A DNA stretch of 64,000 bases, taken from positions 78,561,911 to 78,625,910 of the forward strand of contig CM059198.1 in NCBI GenBank assembly GCA_030323885.1, written 5' to 3'. Positions within the stretch are counted from its first letter, which is position 1; each line of letters starts with the position of its first letter. This document shows, in pieces, positions 14,476 through 62,385 of this stretch. Origin of the DNA: Branchipolynoe longqiensis (lineage: Eukaryota > Annelida > Polychaeta > Phyllodocida > Polynoidae). A program made the translations under genes and the position numbers. The notes beneath the pieces are model-generated. The model searched no databases, was not told the DNA's origin, and saw only the letters and a list, made by a program, of their open reading frames with translations.

Positions 14476-15487
14476 TAGTGTGGTGGTTTGCACTGGCCTC
14501 TCGGGCAAGTAACCACATATACAGGTAGGCATGGGTAGTGTGTTGATACCAGGGAGCCTAGGTGGTGTAATGGTTAGCACACTGGCCCAGAATGCAAGAA
14601 GATGTGCGTTTGAGTCCCGCTCTAGGCACAATATTTCCCATTTTCATCGCCCCCATGAAACTGGTTGCCGTGACCATGATCCTGTACAAGCTACACGCTG
14701 TATGGTTGTTGAACCTACGCCTGTATGTATGTAATTGTAAGCATTAAAAGACTTACAACCAACAACACCCCCCAAACCCACAAACAAAAACCAGGGAGCC
14801 TAGGTGGTGTAATGGTTAGCACACTGGCCCGGAATGCAAGAAGATGTGCGTTTGAGTCCCGCTCTAGGCACAATATTTCCCATTTTCATCGCCCCCATGA
14901 CACTGGTTGCCGTGACCATGATCCTGTACAAGCTACATGCTGTATGGTTGTTGAACCTACACCTGTATGTATGTAATTGTAAGCATTAAAAGACTTACAA
15001 TTCCAGGGGGACAAGTGTAGTGGTTTGCACTGGCCTCTCGGGCAAGTAACCACATAGACAGGTAGGCATGGGTAGTGTGGTGATACCAGGGAGTCTAGGT
15101 GGTGTAATGGTTAGCACACTGGCCCGGACTGCAAGGAGATGTGGGTTCGAGTCCCACTCTAGGCACAATATTTCCCATTTTCATCACCCCCATGACACTG
15201 GTTGCCGTGACCATGATCCTGTACAAGCTACACGATGTATGGTTGTTGAACCTACGCCTGTATGTATGTAATTGTAAGCATTAAAAGACTTACAATTCCA
15301 GGGGGACAAGTGTAGTGGTTTGCACTGGCCTCTCAGGCAAGTAACCACATAGACAGGTATGTATGGGTAGTGTGGTGATACCAGGGAGCCTAGGTGGTGT
15401 AATAGTTAGCACACTGGCCCAGAATGCAAAGAGATGTGGGTTCGAGTCCCACTCTAGGAGTTATATTTCCCATTTTCATCACCCCCA
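14476..15487 (+). mobile_element. Four SINE-B copies (tRNA-Gln-like head) in tandem
   Basis: Each copy has the head gcctaggtggtgtaatggtt, then agcacactggcc, a B box gttcgagtcccgctctaggc, and the body cacaatatttcccattttca through gttgccgtgaccatgatcct. They start near 14552, 14795, 15090 and 15385. The third and fourth also repeat a leader with ggcctctcgggcaagtaacc, giving a period near 295 bp. The A-box arm closely resembles tRNA-Gln and the ends can pair as an acceptor stem (gcctag/ctaggc), but the anticodon arm is not well formed. I call SINEs, not tRNA genes. The last copy is truncated after the head. Confidence 0.8.
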
Positions 15488-15489
15488 CG

Positions 15490-15900
15490 ACAATAGCTTA
15501 TATAAATACAGTTCCTCTGAACTAGAATAGGTATCATCCCAACCACGGACAAATACATACATTCGTCCTAAAATAATACTCGCATAATAAAATATACAAC
15601 ACAAAACATTATTTTCAGATAACCTCACCGTAGATTTCCGCTATTTTTCGCCTGAGACCTCTTTAGTCCTTGTACATTTCCAGATGGCGCAAGTGTAAAA
15701 TGAACAATGTGCAAGCCCTATTTAAATTGTGGTGCTGCCCAATTATTTGTGGTGTGACATTTGGGAACTAATGACAGCTTCCACCAATGGTATTTACGTC
15801 ACACCCAATTACTTGAGAGGACCCCCCCCCCCTATGGGTTTAATTGTGTCGGTCTAATCTCACTACGGCTCAGTCTAGCCTCAGCTGTCGGACATTAATC
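15490..15900. other. Spacer without a gene
   Basis: No array or ORF of note. A run of ten C lies near 15821-15831. Confidence 0.4.
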
Positions 15901-33449: not shown

Positions 33450-33947
33450 NNNNNNNNNNNNNNNNNNNNNNNNNNNNNNNNNNNNNNNNNNNNNNNNNNN
33501 NNNNNNNNNNNNNNNNNNNNNNNNNNNNNNNNNNNNNNNNNNNNNNNNNNNNNNNNNNNNNNNNNNNNNNNNNNNNNNNNNNNNNNNNNNNNNNNNNNNN
33601 NNNNNNNNNNNNNNNNNNNNNNNNNNNNNNNNNNNNNNNNNNNNNNNNNNNNNNNNNNNNNNNNNNNNNNNNNNNNNNNNNNNNNNNNNNNNNNNNNNNN
33701 NNNNNNNNNNNNNNNNNNNNNNNNNNNNNNNNNNNNNNNNNNNNNNNNNNNNNNNNNNNNNNNNNNNNNNNNNNNNNNNNNNNNNNNNNNNNNNNNNNNN
33801 NNNNNNNNNNNNNNNNNNNNNNNNNNNNNNNNNNNNNNNNNNNNNNNNNNNNNNNNNNNNNNNNNNNNNNNNNNNNNNNNNNNNNNNNNNNNNNNNNNNN
33901 NNNNNNNNNNNNNNNNNNNNNNNNNNNNNNNNNNNNNNNNNNNNNNN
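33450..33947. other. Assembly gap (498 N)
   Basis: A run of N between the RT fragment and the 60-bp array. The true length is unknown, so the array may be longer than shown. ORFs that cross it are meaningless. Confidence 0.99.
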
Positions 33948-36900
33948 GCATGAGCCTACTTGTTGGTGGAGGATGTAGAAAACAGTAACAACCCACTACA
34001 TAAAGTAACATGAGCCTACTTGTTGGTGGGGATGTAGAAAACAGTAACAAACCACTACGTAAAGTAACATGAGCCTACTTGTTGGTGGGAGATGTAGAAA
34101 ACAGTAACAAACCACTACGTAAAGTAACATGAGCCTACTTGTTGGTGGAGGATGGAGGATGTAGAAAACAGTAACAAACCACTACGTAAACTAACATCAG
34201 CCTACTTGTTGGTGGGGATGTAGAAAACAGTAACAAACAACTACGTAAAGTAACATGAGCCTACTTGTTGGTGGAGGATGTAGAAAACAGTAACAAACCA
34301 CTACGTAAAGTAACATGAGCCTACTTGTTGGTGGAGGATGTAGAAAACAGTAACAAACCACTACGTAAAGTAACATCAGCCTACTTGTTGGTGGGGGATG
34401 TAGAAAACAGTAACAAACCACTACGTAAAGTAACATGAGCCTACTTGTTGGTGGGGGATGTAGAAAACAGTAACAAACCACTACGTAAAGTAACATGAGC
34501 CTACTTGTTGGTGGAGGATGTAGAAAACAGTAACAAACCACTACGTAAAGTAACATGAGCCTACTTGTTGGTGGAGGATGTAGAAAACAGTAACAAACCA
34601 CTACGTAAAGTAACATGAGCCTACTTGTTGGTGGAGGATGTAGAAAACAGTAACAAACCACTACGTAAAGTAACATGAGCCTACTTGTTGGTGGGAGATG
34701 TAGAAAACAGTAACAAACCACTACGTAAAGTAACATGAGCCTACTTGTTGGTGGGGATGTAGAAAACAGTAACAAACCACTACGTAAAGTAACATGAGCC
34801 TACTTGTTGGTGGAGGATGTAGAAAACAGTAACAAACCACTACGTAAAGTAACATGAGCCTACTTGTTGGTGGAGGATGTAGAAAACAGTAACAAACCAC
34901 TACATAAAGTAACATGAGCCTACTTGTTGGTGGAGGATGTAGAAAACAGTAACAAACCACTACGTAAAGTAACATGAGCCTACTTGTTGGTGGAGGATGT
35001 AGAAAACAGTAACAAACCACTACGTAAAGTAACATGAGCCTACTTGTTGGTGGGGATGTAGAAAACAGTAACAAACCACTACGTAAAGTAACATGAGCCT
35101 ACTTGTTGGTGGGGGATGTAGAAAACAGTAACAAACCACTACGTAAAGTAACATGAGCCTACTTGTTGGTGGGGATGTAGAAAACAGTAACAAACCACTA
35201 CGTAAAGTAACATGAGCCTACTTGTTGGTGGGGGATGTAGAAAACAGTAACAAACCACTACGTAAAGTAACATGAGCCTACTTGTTGGTGGGGATGTAGA
35301 AAACAGTAACAAACCACTACGTAAAGTAACATCAGCCTACTTGTTGGTGGAGGATGTAGAAAACAGTAACAAACCACTACGTAAAGTAACATCAGCCTAC
35401 TTGTTGGTGGGGGATGTAGAAAACAGTAACAAACCACTACGTAAAGTAACATGAGCCTACTTGTTGGTGGAGGATGTAGAAAACAGTAACAAACCACTAC
35501 ATAAAGTAATGTAACATGAGCCTACTTGTTGGTGGAGATGTAGAAAACAGTAACAAACCACTACGTAAAGTAACATGAGCCTACTTGTTGGTGGAGATGT
35601 AGAAAACAGTAACAAACCACTACTAAAGTAACTGAGCCTACTTGTTGGTGGGAGATGTAGAAAACATAACAAACCACTACGTAAAGTAACATGAGCCTAC
35701 TTTTGTGGAGGATGTAGAAAACAGTAACAAACCACTACGTAAAGTAACATGAGCCTACTTGTTGGTGGGGGATGTAGAAAACAGTAACAAACCACTACAT
35801 AAAGTAACATGAGCCTACTTGTTGGTGGAGGATGTAGAAAACAGTAACAAACCACTACGTAAAGTAACATGAGCCTACTTGTTGGTGGGGATGTAGAAAA
35901 CAGTAACAAACCACTACGTAAAGTAACATGAGCCTACTTGTTGGTGGGGGATGTAGAAAACAGTAACAAACCACTACGTAAAGTAACATCAGCCTACTTG
36001 TTGGTGGGGGATGTAGAAAACAGTAACAAACCACTACGTAAAGTAACATGAGCCTACTTGTTGGTGGAGGATGTAGAAAACAGTAACAAACCACTACGTA
36101 AAGTAACATGAGCCTACTTGTTGGTGGGGATGTAGAAAACAGTAACAAACCACTACGTAAAGTAACATGAGCCTACTTGTTGGTGGAGGATGTAGAAAAC
36201 AGTAACAAACCACTACGTAAAGTAACATGAGCCTACTTGTTGGTGGGGGATGTAGAAAACAGTAACAAACCACTACGTAAAGTAACTGAGCCTACTTGTT
36301 GGTGGGGATGTAGAAAACAGTAACAAACCACTACGTAAAGTAACATAGCCTACTTGTTGGTGGAGGATGTAGAAAACAGTAACAAACCACTACGTAAAGT
36401 AACATGAGCCTACTTGTTGGTGGAGGATGTAGAAAACAGTAACAAACCACTACATAAAGTAACATGAGCCTACTTGTTGGTGGAGGATGTAGAAAACAGT
36501 AACAAACCACTACGTAAAGTAACATGAGCCTACTTGTTGGTGGAGGATGTAGAAAACAGTAACAAACCACTACATAAAGTAACATGAGCCTACTTGTTGG
36601 TGGAGGATGTAGAAAACAGTAACAAACCACTACATAAAGTAACATGAGCCTACTTGTTGGTGGAGGATGTAGAAAACAGTAACAAACCACTACATAAAGT
36701 AACATGAGCCTACTTGTTGGTGGAGGATGTAGAAAACAGTAACAAACCACTACATAAAGTAACATGAGCCTACTTGTTGGTGGAGGATGTAGAAAACAGT
36801 AACAAACCACTACATAAAGTAACATGAGCCTACTTGTTGGTGGAGGATGTAGAAAACAGTAACCAACCACTACATAAAGTAACATGGGCCTACTTGTTGG

Positions 36901-38160
36901 TGGAGGATGTAGAAAACAGTAACAAAGCACTACGTAAAGTAACATGAGCCTACTTGTTGGTGGGAGATGTAGAAAACAGTAACAACCCACTACGTAAAGT
37001 AAAATGAGCCTACTTGTTGGTGGGGATGTAGAAAACAGTAATAAACCACTACCTAAAGTAACATGAGCCTACTTGTTGGTGGTGGATGTAGAAAACAGTA
37101 ATAAACCACTACGTAAAGTAACATGAGCCTACTTGTTAATGGGGATGTAGAAAACAGTAACAAACCACTACGTAAAGTAACATGAGCCTACTTGTTAATG
37201 GGGATGTAGAAAACAGTAACAAACCACTACGTAAAGTAACATCAGCCTACTTGTTAATGGGGATGTAGAAAACAGTAACAAACCACTACATAAAGTAACA
37301 TCAGCCTACTTGTTGGTGGAGGATGTAGAAAACAGTAACAAACTACTACGTGAAGTAACATGAGCCTACTTGTTGGTGGGGATGTAGAAAACAGTAATAA
37401 ACCACTACGTAAAGTAACATGAGCCTACTTGTTGGTGGGGATGTAGAAAACAGTAATAAACCACTACGTAAAGTAACATGAGCCTACTTGTTGGTGGTGG
37501 ATGTAGAAAACAGTAACAAACCACTACGTAAAGTAACATCAGCCTACTTGTTGGTGGGAATGTAGAAAACAGTAATAAACCACTACGTAAAGTAACATCA
37601 GCCTACTTGTTGGTGGAGGATATAGAAAACAGTAACAAACCACTACGTAAAGTAACATGAGCCTACTTGTTGGTGGGAGATGTAGAAAACAGTAACAAAC
37701 CACTACGTAAAGTAACATGAGCCTACTTGTTGGTGGAGGATGTAGAAAACAGTAACAAACCACTACGTAAAGTAACATCAGCCTACTTGTTGGTGGGAGA
37801 TGTAGAAAACAGTAACAAACCACTACGTAAAGTAACATGAGCCTACTTGTTGGTGGAGGATGTAGAAAACAGTAACAAACCACTACGTAAAGTAACATGA
37901 GCCTACTTGTTGGTGGAGGATGTAGAAAACAGTAACAAACCACTACGTAAAGTAACATGAGCCTACTTGTTGGTGGAGGATGTAGAAAACAGTAACAAAC
38001 CACTACATAAAGTAACATGAGCCTACTTGTTGGTGGGGATGTAGAAAACAGTAATAAACCACTACGTAAAGTAACATGAGCCTACTTGTTGGTGGAGGAT
38101 GTAGAAAACAGTAACAAACCACTACCTAAAGTAACATGAGCCTACTTGTTGGTGGGGATG
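33948..38160. repeat. 60-bp satellite, about 70 copies, seeded by exon 12
   Basis: The plus-strand unit contains catgagcctacttgttggtg, gaggatgtagaaaacagtaa and caaaccactacgtaaagtaa. Length variants come from ggtggggatg versus ggtggaggatg. The last unit runs without a break into exon 12: cctacttgttggtggggatg is shared up to 38160, then ccgagagc belongs only to the exon. On the minus strand every unit repeats the exon end (..ATCCCCACCAACAAG) followed by TAGGCTCATG. Variants ttaatgggg at 37135-37260 and ataaag units at 36430-36870 cluster, which suggests local homogenisation. Confidence 0.93.
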
Positions 38161-39137: not shown

Positions 39138-39277
39138 GTGACTGCGAAGCTGTGTTGCTCGAGCTGCTCCTGGTAGGTGAGCGGTCTCCTGGCTTTCTTC
39201 TTCGACAGGATGGGCGTCTTGGGCAAGAGTGTGTACAACTCCTTGTGGTACTCATCTACCGGGTTGTGCTGGTATTT
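39138..39277 (-). CDS. Host gene exon 11
   Basis: The acceptor ttttatag precedes AAATACCAGCAC, phase 0 with exon 10. Residues: KYQHNPVDEYHKELYTLL, then PKTPILSKKKARRPLTYQ and EQLEQHSFAVT. The basic KSKKKARR-like patch is notable. The exon ends at AC|GTCAGT (donor at 39137), phase 2, which fits exon 12. The donor is weak (C at +3), and a retroelement fragment starts right behind it. Confidence 0.75.
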
Positions 39278-40027: not shown

Positions 40028-40237
40028 CTTGTAGAACATGCCGGGCTGCCCTTTGACGGGGTAAAAGTCACTGTCCTCGTCCATTATGTACAGGTCGTCC
40101 TCGGCACCATGCTCGCCGTCTGACCCGTCACTGACCTTGACCTTGTTGGTCCTGTGCACTTTCCGGGATCCAAAGGTGGTCATCGGACGCATCCTGCGAC
40201 GAATGGTCGCCTTGCCAACCTCACTGCTGGTGACGCT
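40028..40237 (-). CDS. Host gene exon 10 (basic then acidic linker)
   Basis: The acceptor tacattcag precedes AGCGTCACC; the donor is AAG|GTATGT at 40027. Seventy codons, phase 0 at both ends. A basic part (KATIRRRMRPMTTFGSRKVH) is followed by an acidic one (DGSDGEHGAEDDLYIMDEDS) and DFYPVKGQPGMFYK. The composition suggests a flexible regulatory linker. I see no catalytic motif. Confidence 0.85.
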
Positions 40238-40301
40238 CTGAATGTAGGTCACGGTGACACAATTAACGCAACCTGTTTGGTTAGGATATTGTCATAAAAC
40301 T

Positions 40302-42504: not shown

Positions 42505-43205
42505 ATACAAACTGGAAGGAGCTCAGGCCTTTTCCACATTATAGACACAGTGTCCAACAAAAACAGTGTGAGTGTCTTTCCAAGATGGTGCAAACCCTGT
42601 CTAACCATAGCGTGACCCCAGCTGAAGACATTTCAAGTGTCTTTCCAAGATTGTACGAACCCTATCCAACTATAACCTGACCCCAGCTGAAGACATTATG
42701 AGTGTCTTTCCAAGATTCTACAAGCCCTCGCTAACCATGACCTGACCCAAGCTGAAGACAGGGCCAGTGACTTTCCAAGATGGCCCGCACTCCTTCTAAC
42801 CATGACCTGATCCCAGCTAAAGACATGAGTGTCTTTCCAAGAGTGTGTGAACCCTATTTAACCTGACCCCAGCTGAAGACAGCGCGAGTGTCTTTGCAAG
42901 ATGGCGCACACCCAATCTAACCATGACGTGACCATCACTGAAGACAGTGCAGGTGTCTTTCAAAGATTGTGTGAACCCTATTTAACCATGACCTGACCCC
43001 AGCTGAAGACAGCGCAGGTGTCTTTCCAAGATTGTGTGAACCCTATTTAACCATGACCTGACCCTAGCTGAAGACAGTGCGAGTGTCTTTCCAAGATTGT
43101 GTGAACCCTATTTAACCATGACCTGACCACAGCTGAAGACAGTGCAAGTGTCTTTCCAAGATTGTGTGAACCCTATTTAACCATGACCTGACCCCAGATG
43201 GAGAC
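42505..43205. repeat. 65-bp minisatellite, about 11 copies, in intron 8
   Basis: The unit contains gtgtctttccaagattgtgt, gaaccctatttaaccatgac and ctgaccccagctgaagacag. The left copies are more diverged and the right copies near-identical. The array stops about 18 bases before the end of exon 8. Confidence 0.9.
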
Positions 43206-43222: not shown

Positions 43223-43399
43223 TTGTTGGACGTTGCAGGGCTGGCGCCCTCCCGCTCGCCGACGTCGGGCAGGGACCCGGGGACGGGCACCTCGCCGTCC
43301 CGGCACAGCTCGCCGCCCGTGTGCACGCGGTCCGGGTAACTGAGCATCCCCGACGAGAACTGCAGCTCCACCTCGTACTCCTTCTGACCGGCCAGATAC
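43223..43399 (-). CDS. Host gene exon 8
   Basis: The acceptor gtgctgcag precedes GTATCTGGCC; the first G completes an Arg codon from exon 7. Residues YLAGQKEYEVELQFSSGMLS, YPDRVHTGGELCRDGEVPVP and GSLPDVGEREGASPATSN. The first half continues the beta-rich conserved region; the second is a loop-like acidic segment. I place the donor at AACAA|GTAGGG (43222), phase 2, because exon 9 then continues in frame; reading on would give an immediate TAG. Confidence 0.82.
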
Positions 43400-43429
43400 C
43401 TGCAGCACACAGGCGCGGTGTGAGTGGGG

Positions 43430-44939: not shown

Positions 44940-46785
44940 GGATCAAATCTAGGTCAGTGTTTTAGTTTCGAAAATGTGATGCTTTCATTTGACTCTGCCA
45001 CCGTAATGAGTTACCAGTATCAAAGTAGGACATGATCAAATCCACGTAGGTTTTAGTTTCGAGAAGTTGATGCTTTCATTTGACTACACCGTAATGAGTG
45101 TTACCAGTATCAAAGTAGGACATGATCAAATCCACGTAGGTTTTAGTTTCGAGAAGTTGATGCTTTCATTTGACTACACCGTAATGAGTGTTACCAGTAT
45201 CAAAGTAGGACATGATCAAATCCACGTAGGTTTTAGTTTCGAGAAGTTGATGCTTTCATTTGACTACACCGTAATGAGTGTTACCAGTATCAAAGTAGGA
45301 CATGATCAAATCCACGTAGGTTTTAGTTTCGAGAAGTTGATGCTTTCATTTGACTACACCGTAATGAGTGTTACCAGTATCTAAGTAGGACATGATCAAA
45401 TCTACGTAGGTTTTAGTTTCGAGAAGTTGATGCTTTCATTTGACTACACCGTAATGAGTAGTCCGTATAGTCCAGTATCTAAGTAGGACATGATCAAATC
45501 TACGTAGGTTTTAGTTTCGAGAAGTTGATGCTTTCATTTGACTACACCGTAATGAGTGTACCAGTATCTAAGTAGGACATGATCAAATCCACGTAGGTTT
45601 TAGTTTCGAGAAGTTGATGCTTTCATTTGACTACACCGTAATGAGTGTACCAGTATCAAAGTAGGACATGATCAAATCTACGTAGGTTTTAGTTTCGAGA
45701 AGTTGATGCTTCCATTTGACTCTGCCACCGTAATGAGTGTACCAGTATCAAAGTAGGACATGATCAAATATACGTAGGTTTTAGTTTCGAATAGTTGATG
45801 CTTTCATTTGACTACACCGTAATGAGTGTACCAGTATCTAAGTAGGACATGATCAAATCTACGTAGGTTTTAGTTTCGACAAGTTGATGCTTCCATTTGA
45901 CTCTGCCACCGTAATGAGTGTACCAGTATCAAAGTAGGACATGATCAAATCCACATAGGTTTTAGTTTCGAGAAGTTGATGCTTTCATTTGACTACACCG
46001 TAATGAGTGTACCAGTATTTAAGTAGGATATGATCAAATCCACGTAGGTTTTAGTTTCGAATAGTTGATGCCTCCATTTTACTATGCCGTAATGAGTGTA
46101 CCAGTATCTAACTAGGACATGATCAAATCCACGTAGGTTTTAGTTTCGAGAAGTTGATGCTTCCATTTGACTATGCCGTGATGAGTTACCAGTATCTAAG
46201 TAGGACATGATCAAATCCACGTAGGTTTTAGTTTCGAGAAGTTGATGCTTTCATTTGACTACACCGTAATGAGTGTACCAGTATCAAAGTAGGACATGAT
46301 CAAATCCACGTAGCTTTTAGTTTCGAGAAGTTGATGCTTTCATTTGACTACACCGTAATGAGTGTACCAGTATCTAAGTAGGACATGATCAAATCCACGT
46401 AGGTTTTAGTTTCGAGAAGTTGATGCTTCCATTTGACTATGCCGTGATGAGTGTATCAGTATCTAAGTAGGACATGATCAAATCCACGTAGCTTTTAGTT
46501 TCGAAAAGTTGATGCCTTCATTTGACTACACCGTAATGAGTTACCAGTATCTAAGTAAGACATGATCAAATCCACGTAGGTTTTAGTTTCGAGAAGTTGA
46601 TGCCTTCATTTGACTACACCGTAATGAGTTACCAGTATCTAAGTAGGACATGATCAAATCTACGTAGGTTTTAGTTTCGAGAAGTTGATGCTTTCATTTG
46701 ACTACGCCATAATGAGTGTACCAGTATCTAAGTAGGACATGATCAAATCTACGTAGCTTTTGGTTTCGAGAAGTTGATGCTTTCA
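44940..46785. repeat. 90-bp satellite, about 20 copies, in intron 7, derived from MITE-1
   Basis: The unit contains gtaggttttagtttcgagaa, gttgatgctttcatttgact and acaccgtaatgagtgttacc, then agtatcaaagtaggacatga. The first copies (45060-45390) are almost identical at exactly 90 bp; later ones are 86-92 bp. It corresponds to the 3' end of MITE-1 (caccagtatctaagttagac, then gaaaatttgatgttttcatc at 56544-56622). Confidence 0.9.
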
Positions 46786-46830: not shown

Positions 46831-46962
46831 CTTGGTAGTTTGACGATTTCAAAATACAAGTTGGCCATCCAGTGGTCAATGTCGGTTGAGATAAGCTCCT
46901 CGATCTTCTCATGTTTGCTGATCTCGGGGTCCATCTCCCCCCGCAGCAACGGCGCCTTGTAC
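46831..46962 (-). CDS. Host gene exon 7
   Basis: The acceptor tttgtccag precedes GTACAAGGCG; the first G completes a Lys codon from exon 6. Residues YKAPLLRGEMDPEISKHEKI, EELISTDIDHWMANLYFEIV and KLPR (last codon split AG|G). The donor is GTAAGA at 46830, phase 2. The alternating hydrophobic pattern LYFEIVKL looks like a beta strand. Confidence 0.88.
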
Positions 46963-48343: not shown

Positions 48344-48513
48344 TTTCCCTGGATGACGTCGAAGCGGCCATCGGTGATAGGAAAGCAGCCCCAGCTGACC
48401 ACGCGGTCTGTCGCCACCACAGCACCGCGAAGGAGGAACAACTCGAACACCAGCACCATGCCTGGGCGGATGCCTGGCTTGGACGGCAGCACGGTGAACA
48501 CGCTCTGGTCAAT
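48344..48513 (-). CDS. Host gene exon 6
   Basis: The acceptor gctaatgcag precedes ATTGACCAG, phase 0 after exon 5. Residues IDQSVFTVLPSKPGIRPGMV, LVFELFLLRGAVVATDRVVS, WGCFPITDGRFDVIQGK (last codon split). The donor is GGAAA|GTGAGT at 48343, phase 2. Successive short hydrophobic strands and WGCFPI are the best conserved-looking part of the protein. A C2-like beta sandwich is plausible but unproved. Confidence 0.9.
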
Positions 48514-49979: not shown

Positions 49980-50232
49980 GAGTAGAGGTGTATGACAACC
50001 CTGCTTAGTCCGTGCTAATTCCTACTGCTTCAGTAGGAATCAACTGTGGAGGTGGTGGTTCCAATGCGCAGTGTTTATCTACAGCGGCTTAAAGCTGAGA
50101 AATGAGAATGAAAACAAAAAAACAAAAAAACAAGATGGTGGCCACAAAAAGCATTTGATTCGACTTTCAAAGTGTATTAATCTACATGATTCCATAAATA
50201 ATTCATGGGGGTTAAATCCATAACCGAGCCTT
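49980..50232. repeat. Left half of the dispersed repeat that carries the 34-bp array
   Basis: ggtgtatgacaaccctgctt, ggaatcaactgtggaggtgg, gcagtgtttatctacagcgg, caagatggtggccacaaaaa, ggttaaatccataaccgagc. It is homologous to 47985-48270; the right half resumes after the array at about 54310. Confidence 0.7.
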
Positions 50233-53200
50233 CCGCCACTTTTTCTATAGGGTTGTCTAACGCCTTCTGCTACTTTTTCTATAGGGTCGTCTAATGCCTC
50301 CTGCTACTTTTTCTATAGGGTCATCTAACACCTGCTACTTTTTCTATAGGGTCGTCTAACGCCTTCTGCTACTTTTTCTATAGGGTCGTCTAATGCCTCC
50401 CGCTACTTTTTCTATGGGGTCGTCTAGCCCTTTCTGCTACTTTTTCTATAGGGTCGTCTAACCCTTTCTGCTACTTATTCTATAGGGTCGTCTAACCCTT
50501 TCTGCTACTTTTTCAATAGGGTCGTCTAACCCTTTCTGCTACTTTTTCTATAGGGTCGTCTAACCCTTTCTGCTACTTTTTCTATAGGGTCGTCTAACCC
50601 TTTCTGCTACTTTTTCTATAGGGTCGTCTAATGCCTCTGCTCTTTTTCATGGGTCGTCTCACCATTCTGTACTTTTTCTATAGGGTCGTCTAACCCTTTC
50701 TGCTACTTTTTCTATAGGGTCGTCTAACCCCTTCTGCTACTTATTCTATAGGGTCGTCTAACCCTTTCCGCTACTTATTCTATAGGGCCATCAAACACCT
50801 TCTGTTACTTTTTCTATAGGGTCGTCTAACCCTTTCTGCTACTTTTTCTATAGGGTCGTCTAACCCATTCTGCTACTTTTTCTATAGGGTCATCTAACCC
50901 TTTCTGCTACTTTTTCTATAGGGCCGTCCAACGCCTTCTGCTACTTTTTCTATAGGGTCGTCTAACCCTTTCTGCTACTTTTTCTATAGGGTCGTCTAAT
51001 GCCTTCTGCTACTTTTTCTATAGGGTCGTCTAACCCTTTCTGCTACTTTTTCTATAGGGTCGTCTAACACCTTCTGCTACTTTTTCTATAGGGTCGTCTA
51101 ACGCATTCTGCTACTTTTTCTATAGGGTCATCTAACCCTTTCTGCTACTTTTTCTATAAGGTCGTCCAACACCTTCTGCTACTTATTCTATAGGGTCGTC
51201 TAACCCTTTCCGCTACTTATTCTATAGGGCCATCTAACACCTTCTGCTACTTTTTCTATAGGGTTGTCTAACCCATTCTGCTACTTTTTCTATAGGGTCG
51301 TCTAACCCATTCTGCTACTTTTTCTATAGGGTCATCTAACCCTTTCTGCTACTTTTTCTATAGGGCCGTCTAACGCCTTCTGCTACTTTTTCTATAGGGT
51401 CGTCTAACCCTTTCTGCTACTTTTTCTATAGGGTCGTCTAATGCCTCCTGCTACTTTTTCTATAGGGTCGTCTAACCCTTTTTGGTACTTTTTCTATAGG
51501 GTCGTCTAACACCTTCTGCTACTTTTTCTATAGGGTCGTCTAACCTTTTTTTTTTGGGACCTTCTGCTACTTTTTCAATAAGGTCGTCCAACACCTTCTG
51601 CTACTTTTTCTATAGGGTCGTCTAACGCCTTCTGCTACTTTTTCTATAGGGCCGTCTAACGCCTTCTGCTACTTTTTCTATAGGGTCGTCTAACCCTTTC
51701 TGCTACTTTTTCTATAGGGTCGTCTAACCCATTCTGCTACTTTTTCTATAGGGTCGTCCAACACCTTCTGCTACTTATTCTATAGGGTCGTCTAACCCTT
51801 TCTGCTACTTTTTCAATAGGGCCGTCTAACGCCTTCTGCTACTTTTTCTATAGGGTCGTCTAACCCTTTCTGCTACTTTTTCTATAGGGTCGTCGTTTTT
51901 TTTGGGTGTTGTTGTTTTTTGGTTCTAACCCTTTCTGCTACTTTTTCTATAGGGTCGTCTAATGCCTTCTGCTACTTTTTTCTATAGGGTCGTCTAACCC
52001 TTTCTGCTACTTTTTCTATAGGGTCGTCTAACCCCTTCTGCTACTTTTTCTATAGGGCCGTCTAATGCCTTCTGCTACTTTTTCTATAGGGTCGTCTAAC
52101 CCTTTCTGCTACTTTTTCTATAGGGTCATCTAACACCTTCTGCTACTTTTTCTATAGGGTCATCTAACCCTTTCTGCTACTTTTTCTATAGGGTCGTCTA
52201 ACGTCTTCTGCTACTTTTTCTATAGGGTCATCTAACACCTGCTACTTTTTCTATAGGGTCGTCTAACCCTTTCTGCTACTTTTTCTATAGGGTCATCTAA
52301 CCCTTTCTGCTACTTTTTCTATAGGGTCGTCTAACCCTTTCTGGTACTTTTTCTATAGGGTCGTCTAACACCTTCTGCTACTTTTTCTATAGGCTCGTCT
52401 AACCCATTCTGCTACTTTTTCTATACGGTCATCTAACCCTTTCTGCTACTTTTTCTATAAGGTCGTCCAACACCTTCTGCTACTTATTCTATAGGGTCGT
52501 CTAACCCTTTCTGCTACTTTTTCTATAGGGCCATCTAACGCCTTCTGCTACTTTTTCTATAGGGTCGTCTAACCCTTTCTGCTACTTTCTATATTTTTTT
52601 GGTTTGTTGGGGTTAAGCTTCTATTTTTCTATAGGGTCGTCTAACTTCTGCTACTTTTTCTATAGGGTCGTCTAACCCTTTCTGCTATTTTCTATAGGCG
52701 TCAAGTACTTTTTCTATAGGGTCGTCTAACCCATTCTGCTACTTTTTCTATAGGGTCGTCTAACGCATTCTGCTACTTTTTCTATAGGGTCGTCTCACCC
52801 TTTCTGCTACTTTTTCTATAAGGTCGTCCAACACCTTCTGCTACTTATTCTATAGGGTCGTCTAACCCGTTCTGCTACTTTTTCTATCGGGCCATCTAAC
52901 GCCTTCTGCTACTTTTTCTATAGGGTCGTCTAACGTATTCTGCTACTTTTTCTATAGGGTCGTCTAACGTATTCTGCTACTTTTTCTATAGGGTCATCTA
53001 ACCCTTTCTGCTACTTTTTCTATAGGGCCATCTAACGCCTTCTGCTACTTTTTCTATAGGGTCGTCTAACCCTTTCTGCTACTTTTTCTATAGGGTCGTC
53101 TAACGCTTTCTGCTACTTTTTCTATAGGGTCGTCTAACGCCTTCTGCTACTTTTTCTATAGGGTCATCTAACCCTTTCTGCTACTTTTTCTATAGGGCCG

Positions 53201-54312
53201 TCTAACGCCTTCTGCTACTTTTTCTATAGGGTCGTCTAATGCCTCCTGCTACTTTTTCTATAGGGTCGTCTAACCCTTTCTGGTACTTTTTCTATAGGGT
53301 CGTCTAACACCTTCTGCTCCTTTTTCTATAGGGTCGTCTAACCCATTCTGCTACTTTTTCTATAGGGTCATCTAACCCTTTCTGCTACTTTTTCTATAAG
53401 GTCGTCCAACACCTTCTGCTACTTATTCTATAGGGTCGTCTAACCCTTTCTGCTACTTTTTCTATAGGGCCATCTAACGCCTTCTGCTACTTTTTCTATA
53501 GGGTCGTCTAACCCTTTCTGCTACTTTTTCTATAGGGTCGTCTAACGCATTCTGCTACTTTTTCTATAGGGTCATCTAACCCTTTCTGCTACTTTTTCTA
53601 TAGGGCCGTCTAACGCCCTCTGCTACTTTTTCTATAGGGTCATCTAACCCTTTCTCCTACTTTTTCTATAGGGTCATCTAATGCCTTCTGCTACTTTTTC
53701 TATAGGGCCGTCTAACGCCTTCTGCTCCTTTTTCTATAGGGTCATCTAACCCTTTCTGCTACTTTTTCTATAGGGTCGTCTAACACCTTCTGGTACTTTT
53801 TCTATAGGGTCGTCTAACCCTTTCTGCTACTTTTTCTATAGGGTCGTCTAACGCCTTCTGCTACTTTTTCTATAGGGTCGTCTAGCGCCTTCTGCTACTT
53901 TTTCTATAGGGTCGTCTAACCCTTTCTGCTACTTTTTCTATAGGGTCATCTAACCCTTTCTGCTACTTTTTCTATAGGCTCATCTAGTGCCTTCTGCTAC
54001 TTTTTCTATAGGGTCGTTTAAACCTTCTGCTACTTTTTCTATAGGGACGTCTAATGCCTTCTGCTACTTTTTATATAGGGTATTCTAGCGCCTTCTGACA
54101 CTTTTTCTATAGGGTGGTCTAACGCCTTCTGCTACTTTTTCTATAGGGTCGTCTGACACCTTCTGCTACTTTTCTATAGGGTCGTCTAACGCATTCTGCT
54201 ACTTTTTCTATAGGGTTATCTAGTGCCTTCCACCACTTTTTCTATAGGGTCATCTAACACCTTCCACTACTTTTTCTATGAGGTCATCTTGCATATTCTG
54301 ACAATTTTTCAA
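50233..54312. repeat. 34-bp satellite, about 120 copies, in intron 5
   Basis: The unit contains ctgctactttttctataggg plus tcgtctaaccctt. Main variants are aacgcctt, aatgcctc, aacacctt and aacccatt before ctgctac, and gggccg or gggtca. These variants recur in blocks, so there is higher-order structure. T/G-rich breaks occur near 51545, 51895-51925 and 52590-52620; the ends (50215-50300 and 54000-54310) are the most diverged. Confidence 0.93.
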
Positions 54313-54369: not shown

Positions 54370-54984
54370 CATGCTACTTTGGGTGATAGAATATATGACC
54401 TTTATATGACCTAGATTTCTCCCCAAATATGACCTTTTTGTATGAACTTTATACAATGGTATTTCCATTAAAACGCTTTATTTCAAATCAATTGCTACAT
54501 AATAAGAAGTCACAAAACACTGAATACGAGACCATTTTTACAATACTGCATTGACTAATAAGTATCGCAAATAATGCAACAAATACATTTACTACAGCTA
54601 GAAATGTGGTGGCTTTGTGCCTGATTCTTTTATTGGCTTATTTATAGTCCACTAGAAACATGACACAAGAGACTATTTGATGTCAGTCCTTTCATGCAAT
54701 ATGACCGTTATATGACCTTATGACCAAAGTTATCCCAACATATGACCTTTTCAATGGTCACATCTTTTGTAAAATCCATATATGGCTATATATGACTTTA
54801 CATGACATTATATAACCTTAAATGACCATACATGACCTTACATGACATTATATGACCAAAGAAAACATGACCTTACATGACCATACATGGCCATACATGA
54901 CCATACATGACCATGTATGACCAAATATGACCAAATATGACCATACATGACCTTACATGACCTTACATGACCTGGGCACGATCC
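54370..54984. repeat. atgacc-rich region leading into the exon-5 array
   Basis: Left part (54370-54700) is AT-rich with scattered atatgaccttt. The right part (54760-54975) is a short-period array of tacatgacct, tacatgacca and tatgaccaaa words. The same words separate the exon copies at 54985-55931. Confidence 0.8.
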
Positions 54985-55931
54985 CTGTACACCTACCTTG
55001 ATCTCGGTGTTGTAAAAGTGTCCGTCGTGGTGCAGTGGCAGTGTGGTGCCGCCCCACTGCTTCGACCAAACATGACCTTACATGACCATACATGACCTGG
55101 GCATGATCCCTGTACACCTACCTTGATCTCGGTGTTGTAAAAGTGTCCGTCATGGTGCAGTGGCAGTGTGGTGCCGCCCCACAGCTTCGACCATACATGA
55201 CCATACATGACCTTACATGACCTGGGCACGAACCCTGTACACCTACCTTGATCTTGGTATTGTAAAAGTGTCCGTCATGGTGCAGTGGCAGTGTGGTGCC
55301 GCCCCACTGCTGGCCCCTCAGCTTCGACCAAACATGACCTTACATGACCATACATGACCTGGGCACGATCCCTGTACACCTACCTTGATCTCGGTGTTGT
55401 AAAAGTGTCCGTCGTGGTGCAGTGGCAGTGTGGTGCCGCCCCACTGCTGGCCCCTCAGCTTCGACCAAACATGACCTTACATGACCATACATGACCTGGG
55501 CACGATCCCTGTACACCTACCTTGATCTCGGTGTTGTAAAAGTGTCCGTCGTGGTGCAGTGGCAGTGTGGTGCCGCCCCACTGCTGGCCCCTCAGCTTCG
55601 ACCAAACATGACCTTACATGACCATACATGACCTGGGCACGATCCCTGTACACCTACCTTGATCTCGGTGTTGTAAAAGTGTCCGTCGTGGTGCAGTGGC
55701 AGTGTGGTACCGCCCCACTGCTGGCCCCTCAGCTTCGACCATACATGACCTTACATGACCATACATGACCTGGGCACGAACCCTGTACACCTACCTTGAT
55801 CTCGGTGTTGTAAAAGTGTCCGTCGTGGTGCAGTGGCAGTGTGGTGCCGCCCCACTGCTGGCCCCTCAGCTTCGACCATACATGACCTTACATGACCATA
55901 CATGACCTGGGCACGAACCCTGTACACCTAC
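54985..55931 (-). repeat. Seven tandem copies of the 3' half of exon 5 with its splice donor
   Basis: Each unit (120-138 bp) contains on the minus strand the codons for LRGQQWGGTTLPLHHDGHFYNTEIK (shown here only by its ends), then AAG|GTAGGTGTACAGGG, then gtcatgtatggtcatg words. Donor copies lie near 55001, 55121, 55247, 55383, 55521, 55659 and 55793; the real exon's donor is at 55931. The two leftmost copies lack about 15 coding bases (ctgctggcccctcag). The unit has no polypyrimidine-AG acceptor, so the copies look like donor-only pseudo-exons. Confidence 0.92.
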
Positions 55932-56074
55932 CTTGATCTCGGTGTTGTAAAAGTGTCCGTCGTGGTGCAGTGGCAGTGTGGTGCCGCCCCACTGCTGGCC
56001 CCTCAGCTTCGACCAGTGGAGCACGTGACCTCCCAACCGGTCATACAGCGACACCATCATCACGTAGCGGCCGG
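55932..56074 (-). CDS. Host gene exon 5 (complete copy)
   Basis: The acceptor tctatcag precedes CCGGCCGC, completing a codon begun in exon 4 (phase 1). Residues AGRYVMMVSLYDRLGGHVLH, WSKLRGQQWGGTTLPLHHDG, HFYNTEIK. The donor is AAG|GTAGGT at 55931, phase 0. The pattern YVMMVSLYDRLGG fits a C2-type strand-loop. Only this most upstream copy keeps the 5' half and an acceptor; the seven downstream copies keep the part from about LRGQQW onwards. Their coding part has stayed almost unchanged, so the duplication is recent or is being homogenised. Confidence 0.92.
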
Positions 56075-57033: not shown

Positions 57034-57175
57034 CAGGCAGCTTGTCCTTGACCCCCCTCAGGGTGCGCATCTTGATCTGCACTGGTTGCGGGGTCTTCTC
57101 CCAGTCGACTTTCCACCTGCGGCCCTTACTGCCTCCGTAGTGGCCGTCAGACAGCGTCAGATCCCCGTATATCGT
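57034..57175 (-). CDS. Host gene exon 4
   Basis: The acceptor tttccgtag precedes ACGATATACGG, phase 0 after exon 3. Residues TIYGDLTLSDGHYGGSKGRR, WKVDWEKTPQPVQIKMRTLR, GVKDKLP plus a split codon. The donor is CCTG|GTGAGT at 57033, phase 1. PVQIKMRTLRGVKDKLP reads like the first strand of a C2-like domain that continues in exon 5. Confidence 0.9.
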
Positions 57176-58709: not shown

Positions 58710-58820
58710 CGTGACCTCACCCTTCCGGAAGTTGAGTTTTGAGATGAGCTGGTTCTCGGCGCGTCTGAAGGCTTTGTGGATCCGGTCCAACATGATACGC
58801 TCCTTCTGCAGCAGGATCTC
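58710..58820 (-). CDS. Host gene exon 3
   Basis: The acceptor cgttctacag precedes GAGATCCTG; 37 codons, phase 0 at both ends: EILLQKERIMLDRIHKAFRR, AENQLISKLNFRKGEVT. The donor is ACG|GTAAGC at 58709. The heptad-like spacing of Leu/Ile/Met in a charged background continues the coiled coil of exon 2. Confidence 0.9.
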
Positions 58821-61362: not shown

Positions 61363-61399
61363 TATAGTATGGCCAGGTGAGAGCCGCAAGGATGCTTGC

Positions 61400-61561
61400 C
61401 TGTCTGCGCTTGATGAGTCGCCTCTTCTCCTTGATGTCCCTAGCGACCCGCTTCTTGGCTTCTTCCTCCTTGACGATGACCTCCTGCTGTCGCTCCCTCA
61501 TTGTGCGGGCCTCCTGCTCCTGGTAGTTAATGTGCTCATCGCGCAGGCGCCGCTCCTCCTC
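61400..61561 (-). CDS. Host gene exon 2 (coiled coil), GC donor
   Basis: The acceptor atttgacag precedes GAGGAGGAGCGG. Fifty-four codons: EEERRLRDEHINYQEQEART, MRERQQEVIVKEEEAKKRVA, RDIKEKRRLIKRRQ. This is a highly charged, proline-free alpha helix, almost certainly coiled coil. There is no GT donor at the end; CAG|GCAAGC at 61399 is a good GC-AG intron donor, and it keeps the frame with exon 3 at phase 0. Reading through would add ASILAAL and more without a known continuation. Confidence 0.85.
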
Positions 61562-61797: not shown

Positions 61798-62215
61798 AGA
61801 TTAACTTACAGATCCTCTTCTGGCTGATCTAGGCCCTATTGGGCCTCTAATGGATTAACTTACAGATCCTCTTCTGACTGATCTAGGCCCTATTGGGCCT
61901 CTAATGGATCAACTTAAAGATCCTCTTCTGGCTGATCTAGGCCTTATTGGGCCTATAATTGATTAACTTAAAGATCCTCTTCTGGCTGATCTAGGCCCTA
62001 TTGGGCCTCTAATAGATTAACTTACAGATCCTCTTCTACGCCCTATTGGGCCTATAATGGATTAACTTAAAGATCCTCTTCTGGCTGATCTAGGCCCTAT
62101 TGGGCCTATAATGGATTAACTTAAAGATCCTCTTCTGGCTGATCTAGGCCCTATCGGGTCTCTAATGGATTAATGTACAGATCCTCTTCTGGCTGATCTA
62201 GGCCCTATTGGGTCT
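61798..62215. repeat. 54-bp minisatellite, about eight copies, in intron 1
   Basis: The unit has gattaacttacagatcctct, tctggctgatctaggcccta and ttgggcctctaatg. One copy near 62015-62045 lacks about 12 bases. It ends about 40 bases before exon 1. Confidence 0.9.
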
Positions 62216-62255
62216 CCAATGCCAGCTCTTTATGGTGGATGCAGCTTCAACATAC

Positions 62256-62385
62256 CTGGACATCCTCCAGAGTAATGGCACCAATCATGAGCACGTCATC
62301 CTTGACACCTTCCTCAAAGTCCTCCACGTAGGGCGCAATGTCCTCCTCTTCCAGCCGCAGTTTCAGCTCGGAGATCTTCTTGTAC
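62256..62385 (-). CDS. Host gene exon 1 of those visible
   Basis: The acceptor catcgtccag precedes GTACAAGAAG (phase: the first G completes a codon of an upstream exon beyond this window). Residues YKKISELKLRLEEEDIAPYV, EDFEEGVKDDVLMIGAITLE, DVQ. The donor is CAG|GTATGT at 62255, phase 0. The segment is acidic and helical. The start of the gene is not in the window. Confidence 0.85.

Follow-up and report, generated by a model that had tools for sequence, protein, structure and literature searches.

Exon E5 of a minus-strand gene that its homologues suggest to be OFCC1-like is followed directly by an exon-edge array, which consists of seven partial copies of the 3' end of the exon, each of which carries its final 67-79 bases and the donor AAG/GTAGGT. 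Our explanation of it as a whole, which we hold with good confidence, is that of a mirage-type exon-edge minisatellite, i.e. a tandem repeat laid across the edge of an exon, which arose by tandem duplication, whose first donor is the one in use and whose copies are near-neutral. The array was found in a window, the whole stretch of 64,000 bases that was analysed, which covers C13:78561911-78625910 of an assembly of 1.85 Gb in 1914 contigs.

The gene and the array behind exon E5

The host gene was followed through ten exons in the window, and an additional exon, E0, sits upstream and outside it on segment L009. The exon called E5 here is the one that an earlier, sequence-only reading had counted as exon 5. 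The exons are as follows.

62256-62385, minus strand, exon of the OFCC1-like gene
61400-61561, minus strand, exon of the OFCC1-like gene, with the GC donor CAG/GCAAGC at 61394-61399
58710-58820, minus strand, exon of the OFCC1-like gene
57034-57175, minus strand, exon of the OFCC1-like gene
55932-56074, minus strand, exon E5, intact, 143 bp, with the acceptor TATCAG/ at its high end and the donor AAG/GTAGGT at its low end (tblastn with homologues, splice junctions, junction alignment)
48344-48513, minus strand, exon E6, joined to E5 in the protein (tblastn with homologues, junction alignment)
46831-46962, minus strand, exon of the OFCC1-like gene
43223-43401, minus strand, exon of the OFCC1-like gene
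40028-40249, minus strand, exon E9, limits approximate
39140-39277, minus strand, exon E10, limits approximate

The joined product of 547 aa, which includes a guessed E8/E9 joint, gave 52 protein matches at E <= 0.001 among 7994 candidates scored, and the best-scoring homologue was a protein of the bivalve Dreissena with 58% identity. Several homologues carry the name orofacial cleft 1 candidate (OFCC1) in bivalve, shark and bird records. The name is given here as 'OFCC1-like' because the Pfam OFCC1 model matches neither the 547-aa product nor the Mactra protein named OFCC1; the model did match one shark relative. No Pfam domain was found in a 132-aa piece or in the 547-aa joined product, and a search of solved structures returned one match (E 0.81).

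The array lies at the low end of E5 and is made up of the following elements, in which each donor is given by its first intronic base on the minus strand (55931 for donor 1).

55926-55931, minus strand, donor 1, GTAGGT, regarded as the ancestral E5 splice site on the basis of the homologues aligned at the joint (51 of 55 without insertion or loss)
55795-55873, minus strand, copy 1, 79 exonic nt, donor 55794, same as the exon
55658-55736, minus strand, copy 2, 79 nt, donor 55657
55521-55599, minus strand, copy 3, 79 nt, donor 55520
55384-55462, minus strand, copy 4, 79 nt, donor 55383
55247-55325, minus strand, copy 5, 79 nt, donor 55246
55122-55188, minus strand, copy 6, 67 nt, 12-bp deletion, donor 55121
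54997-55063, minus strand, copy 7, 67 nt, 12-bp deletion, donor 54996
54788-54973, minus strand, intronic 10-bp minisatellite (AAGGTCATGT / TATGGTCATG)

The unit measures 137 bp (the seventh 125 bp), of which 79 bases are exonic and 58 intronic, and a 12-bp exonic deletion leaves 67 exonic bases in copies 6-7. Tandem Repeats Finder (TRF) reported a period of 137, 6.1 copies and 98% matches with a score of 1589, far beyond chance. The sequence-only reading had described seven near-identical copies of the end of this exon, which the alignment of the units and TRF bear out; its figure of about 75 coding bases per copy was right as an approximation and inexact in detail. It had also seen no copied acceptor, and this too stands, as in the 82.9-kb joined sequence the donor edge of E5 occurs at eight places and the acceptor edge at one, the acceptor having been copied with none of the seven units. 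A search of the genome, in which simple repeats are left out so that the counts are lower bounds, gave at least nine matches, all of them at the E5 locus: the exon, the seven copies and a weak ninth match (32 bases, 94%, E 3.4e-4) at window positions 54881-54912, inside the 10-bp tract.

All the copies lie inside intron 5, and the coding sequence is continuous with that of the homologues. The last unit of the array continues into the intronic 10-bp minisatellite, and the 58 intronic bases of each unit end with about three 10-mers of the same type. Over 54782-54973 the 10-bp repeat contains five AGGTCA and 13 GGTCA words, some at 10-bp spacing, which may resemble the DR4 elements of nuclear receptors.

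Donor choice and its predicted consequences

For the alignment across the E5/E6 joint, 60 proteins were fetched, and P0052-P0055 and P0060, with fewer than 15 residues there, were dropped (n=55). No residue is added or lost at the joint in 51 of these homologous proteins, which come from corals, bivalves, sharks and birds; the four exceptions are P0013 and P0014 with extra residues, and P0045 and P0058 with 19 residues instead of 20. This conservation argues that the intact donor 1 is the real splice site of E5. When the true frame is read past donor 1, 21 codons are followed by TGA at 55868-55866 (minus strand), upstream of every later donor. The distance from this stop to the junction would be 71, 208, 345, 482, 619, 744 and 869 nt for donors 2-8, respectively. 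Nonsense-mediated decay follows the rule that a stop lies more than about 50-55 nt before a junction. Since the stop stands at least 71 nt before the junction for each of donors 2-8, all the resulting messages are predicted decay targets under this rule.

Donor strength does not tell the sites apart. All eight read AAG/GTAGGTGT and are identical, and their calculated pairing with U1 is -12.2 kcal/mol throughout, as against -5.7 to -10.3 kcal/mol at six other tested donors. The eight equal donors in a row of the sequence-only reading are thus confirmed in sequence and in pairing energy. Because the pairing is equal, the later copies should be strong sites, and sequence strength gives donor 1 no advantage. 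Rather, a preference for donor 1 may come from exon definition, with an exon of 143 nt as against at least 280 nt, and it would agree with precedent. Donor 1 would then serve nearly all the functional mRNA and the copies would be spliced out, while the occasional use of donor 2 or a later one would lengthen the exon, bring in a premature stop and hence lead to nonsense-mediated decay. The E5 array is most likely tolerated, unstable, near-neutral DNA which at most lowers the mRNA output when it is long; it likely has either no role or that of a length-dependent loss of mRNA.

Such a loss could also be imagined as a control in its own right, a splicing rheostat in which equal donors compete for U1 and the length of the array sets the output of the gene through the share of messages that decays. 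The stop at least 71 nt before the junction at every later donor and the strength and identity of the donors would suit such a device, but near-neutral turnover accounts for the sequence equally well, and we regard the rheostat as unlikely.

A second array and the placement of arrays around donors

The array at E5 has a counterpart in the same gene. Exon E0, located on L009 (C13:78625000-78634900), reads ...SLFTQPEHVS/R and matches a Solemya relative, and its donor has its first intronic base at 67269 in window numbering. The array there occupies L009:3288-4210 (about 66377-67299 in window numbering), with a unit made of about the last 30 exonic bases and CAG/GTAGG that recurs down the intron. 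The units are mostly of 91-92 bp, one being of 66 bp, and the donor is found at 11 places counting the real one, i.e. ten extra. Skipping the E0 donor leads to a TAG at once. At the joint of this array no clear shared word was seen by eye. Exon-edge arrays therefore stand at two of the ten donors of the OFCC1-like gene, and no acceptor-edge array was found at any of the 11 exons tested in it.

The second array also bears on whether the first is real. A single true copy might have been multiplied by the assembler or by the merging of haplotypes, as the basis is a single assembly and difficulties of this kind have been met before: the draft genome is reported to contain an apparently faulty assembly of one globin mirage of amphioxus (PMC3087553), and the amphioxus PGBD5 locus is described in two versions with different repeat number (PMC3902484). 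Such an artefact is nevertheless very improbable here. The copies differ by substitutions and by the 12-bp exonic deletion, and the E5 array is a single block free of N runs, both of which speak against a simple misjoin; a like design with a different sequence exists at E0, and the surrounding DNA is full of ordinary arrays.

The window holds 42 merged tandem arrays that cover 30,250 of its 64,000 bases, and a window so rich in arrays suggests that their birth is frequent. By 10-kb bins, arrays cover 26-64% of the bins in which the window lies and 4-53% over the 100 kb to its left, 0-8% in the stretch between about 26 and 119 kb past its right end, and 0.3 to 16% in four 10-kb samples elsewhere. 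A scan of 283 kb for arrays with recurrent donor-like motifs gave 12 rows, four of which were the two arrays of the OFCC1-like gene. In five of the eight others (three of one tRNA-Ser-like block, another tRNA-Ser-like array and a 57-bp array) no exon was seen by eye; the row at 14790-15492 contains tRNA-Ser-like elements, and two further rows are GAGGTG-rich arrays near -74 and -69 kb.

Several other repeats of the window may be mentioned. The tRNA-Ser-like elements are arranged in tandem at 14548-15492 with periods of 242 and 295 bp, and ARAGORN called six tRNA-Ser in the window, which are probably tRNA-derived short interspersed elements. A 34-bp array at 50228-54279 has a unit that on the plus strand resembles a 3' splice site (CTAAC, a pyrimidine run, TATAG/G); a branch-point-plus-acceptor pattern matches it 88 times on the plus strand and not once on the minus strand, so that the acceptor-like strand is antisense to the gene whose intron holds the array, and the remaining window adds 28 plus-strand matches to this loose pattern. 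A run of 498 N at 33450-33947, probably a scaffold gap, directly precedes an array at 33949-38157 in which a 60-bp unit occurs about 70 times.

The placement of arrays of at least 100 bp was compared with random placement of the exons, for this one gene, with the low end of the last exon excluded, the limits of E9 and E10 approximate and that of E0 placed one base too low, to no effect on the counts. Two of the ten donors are spanned by arrays, as against a null mean of 0.55 (P about 0.10, one gene); hence the overlap of arrays with donors needs no special cause. Within a distance of 50 bp, a limit set after the data had been inspected, arrays are found at five of the ten donors (the two spanned ones included) as against a mean of 0.86 (P about 0.0009). 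For acceptors the corresponding figure is one of 11 as against 0.95, and none of the 11 is spanned. The three arrays near donors without exon copies (61799-62221, 44941-46785 and 42563-43205) start 35, 46 and 18 bp past the donors that belong to the exons at 62256, 46831 and 43223, respectively. It could be, though we think it rather doubtful, that in this genome minisatellites arise preferentially at the 5' splice sites of transcribed genes, with donor-edge arrays accumulating and acceptor-edge arrays being purged. On that account a donor copied downstream would go unnoticed by the cell, since splicing would favour the first donor and the use of any later one would end in decay.

Origin of the array and comparison with known systems

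The E5 array would have begun with the tandem duplication of a segment that starts inside E5 and ends in the intronic 10-bp repeat. The word TGGTC is present at both ends of this segment, within CACTGGTCGAAG on the side of the exon and within TATGGTC on that of the minisatellite, and the new joint between units reads ...CATGTATGGTC/GAAGC.... A duplication between these two short matches is suggestive; yet a match of at least 5 bp to the 10-mer tract exists at nine of the 137 exon positions, so that the microhomology at the joint is weak evidence of mechanism. As the copying took in just the 3' end of E5 and its donor, the intact exon remains upstream and every copy lies within the intron. The units may subsequently have multiplied and been partly homogenised by unequal exchange. 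This is indicated by the unit of the exon itself, which equals the first copy over all 137 bp, and by the grouping of variants, some being common to copies 2-4 and the 12-bp deletion to copies 6-7. The proposal of the sequence-only reading that near-identity reflects recent spread or homogenisation agrees with this pattern.

Tandem duplication of an AGGT-bearing segment has been put forward as a route of intron gain (Rogers; Gao and Lynch), and the array could be seen as an early stage of it. Each unit has AAGGT, in principle usable as both types of splice site, and mirages have been proposed as such a source in the amphioxus globins (PMC3087553). However, the copies lie within an existing intron, the coding sequence has no new intron, and the bases before AG/GT (ACAACACCGAGATCAAG) have by eye no pyrimidine tract; we consider this reading highly improbable. 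The copies were also considered as recursive splice sites and rejected, as by eye no pyrimidine tract precedes AG/GT. Least of all, with a chance close to nil, is the array expected to serve alternative coding, be it through protein encoded by the repeats that a later donor would bring in or through use of the copies as small exons. Some frames are open through single units, but TGA closes the true one 21 codons on, so that the extension of the protein through a later donor, as envisaged by the sequence-only reading, is rejected; the copies carry no acceptor and are thereby rejected as exons, and the E5/E6 joint has no insert in 51 of 55 homologous rows.

With the mirage-type minisatellite as the preferred reading, what is least expected is that a single gene should hold a pair of donor arrays and that five of its ten donors should have an array no more than 50 bp away. 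The eight identical and the 11 similar donors behind real exons offer natural tests of the choice of the spliceosome among equal 5' splice sites. Arrays of this kind provide a countable case for deciding between three possibilities: that they are noise, that they modify dosage, at which ABCA7 hints, or that they supply material from which new introns are made.

By analogy, the E5 array appears to belong to a known kind, the exon-edge minisatellites described as 'mirages' and as a donor VNTR. Amphioxus mirages are tandem repeats across exon/intron edges, reported in Adh3, the globins BflGb6 and BflGb9, troponin C and PGBD5, with units of 150-160 bp in BflGb6, 157 bp in BflGb9, 10-72 bp in Adh3, and 60 and 108 bp in PGBD5 (PMC3087553, PMC3902484). 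The BflGb9 mirage duplicates the 3' boundary of exon 2, a donor edge, and that of BflGb6 an acceptor edge; the BflGb6 array shows concerted evolution, its two haplotypes differ in copy number, and the data on the Adh3 and globin mirages suggest normal splicing (PMC3087553, PMC3902484). In human ABCA7, the intron-18 VNTR starts at the exon-18 donor, the first two bases of the unit being the donor GT, and the downstream units repeat this donor in 12 to about 427 copies; it is polymorphic and disease-linked, and use of the next donor, beside canonical splicing, retains one 25-bp unit, with a frameshift and a premature stop as the result (PMC5954066). With these amphioxus and human cases, as far as their available text goes, and with the second array in the same gene, the word 'unusual' that the sequence-only reading had applied to the array is too strong. 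No closer case appeared in the available parts of PMC2812944 and PMC12783039, which treat repeats where human exons meet introns and repeats inside the introns of earthworms. Tandem duplication as a route of intron gain has, according to the accessible part of a review, one in vivo demonstration (PMC3443670), and a potato case is described in PMC4974935. The cases in the accessible text of PMC3087553 and PMC3902484 have cephalochordate hosts; if the present host is not a lancelet, which its 1.85-Gb assembly would suggest beside the about 0.5 Gb of amphioxus, the phenomenon is wider than these two sources report in that text, which is no claim that such cases are unpublished.

The likenesses and differences can be set out for each system. 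As in the amphioxus mirages so far as described there, the unit spans the exon/intron boundary, the intact exon adjoins, the frame is kept and the unit length is similar. The near-identity of the E5 units and their signs of unequal exchange are likewise shared, and as in BflGb9 it is the donor edge that is copied. Unlike the mirages in those accounts, the OFCC1-like gene has two donor-edge arrays, of 8 and 11 donors, and at none of its 11 tested exons an array on the acceptor edge, and the E5 array is known from its sequence, whereas the splicing of the mirages was tested. The intron-gain cases, from what is available of PMC3443670 and PMC4974935, share with E5 the tandem copying of segments that bear splice sites, but there the new intron lies within coding sequence, whereas the E5 copies remain in an old intron. 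Similarly to the ABCA7 VNTR, the E5 units repeat the own donor of the exon directly after it, in eight donors from 55931 to 54996. A premature stop is predicted for E5 should the next donor be used. In contrast to the 25-bp units of ABCA7, those of E5 carry 67-79 exonic bases.
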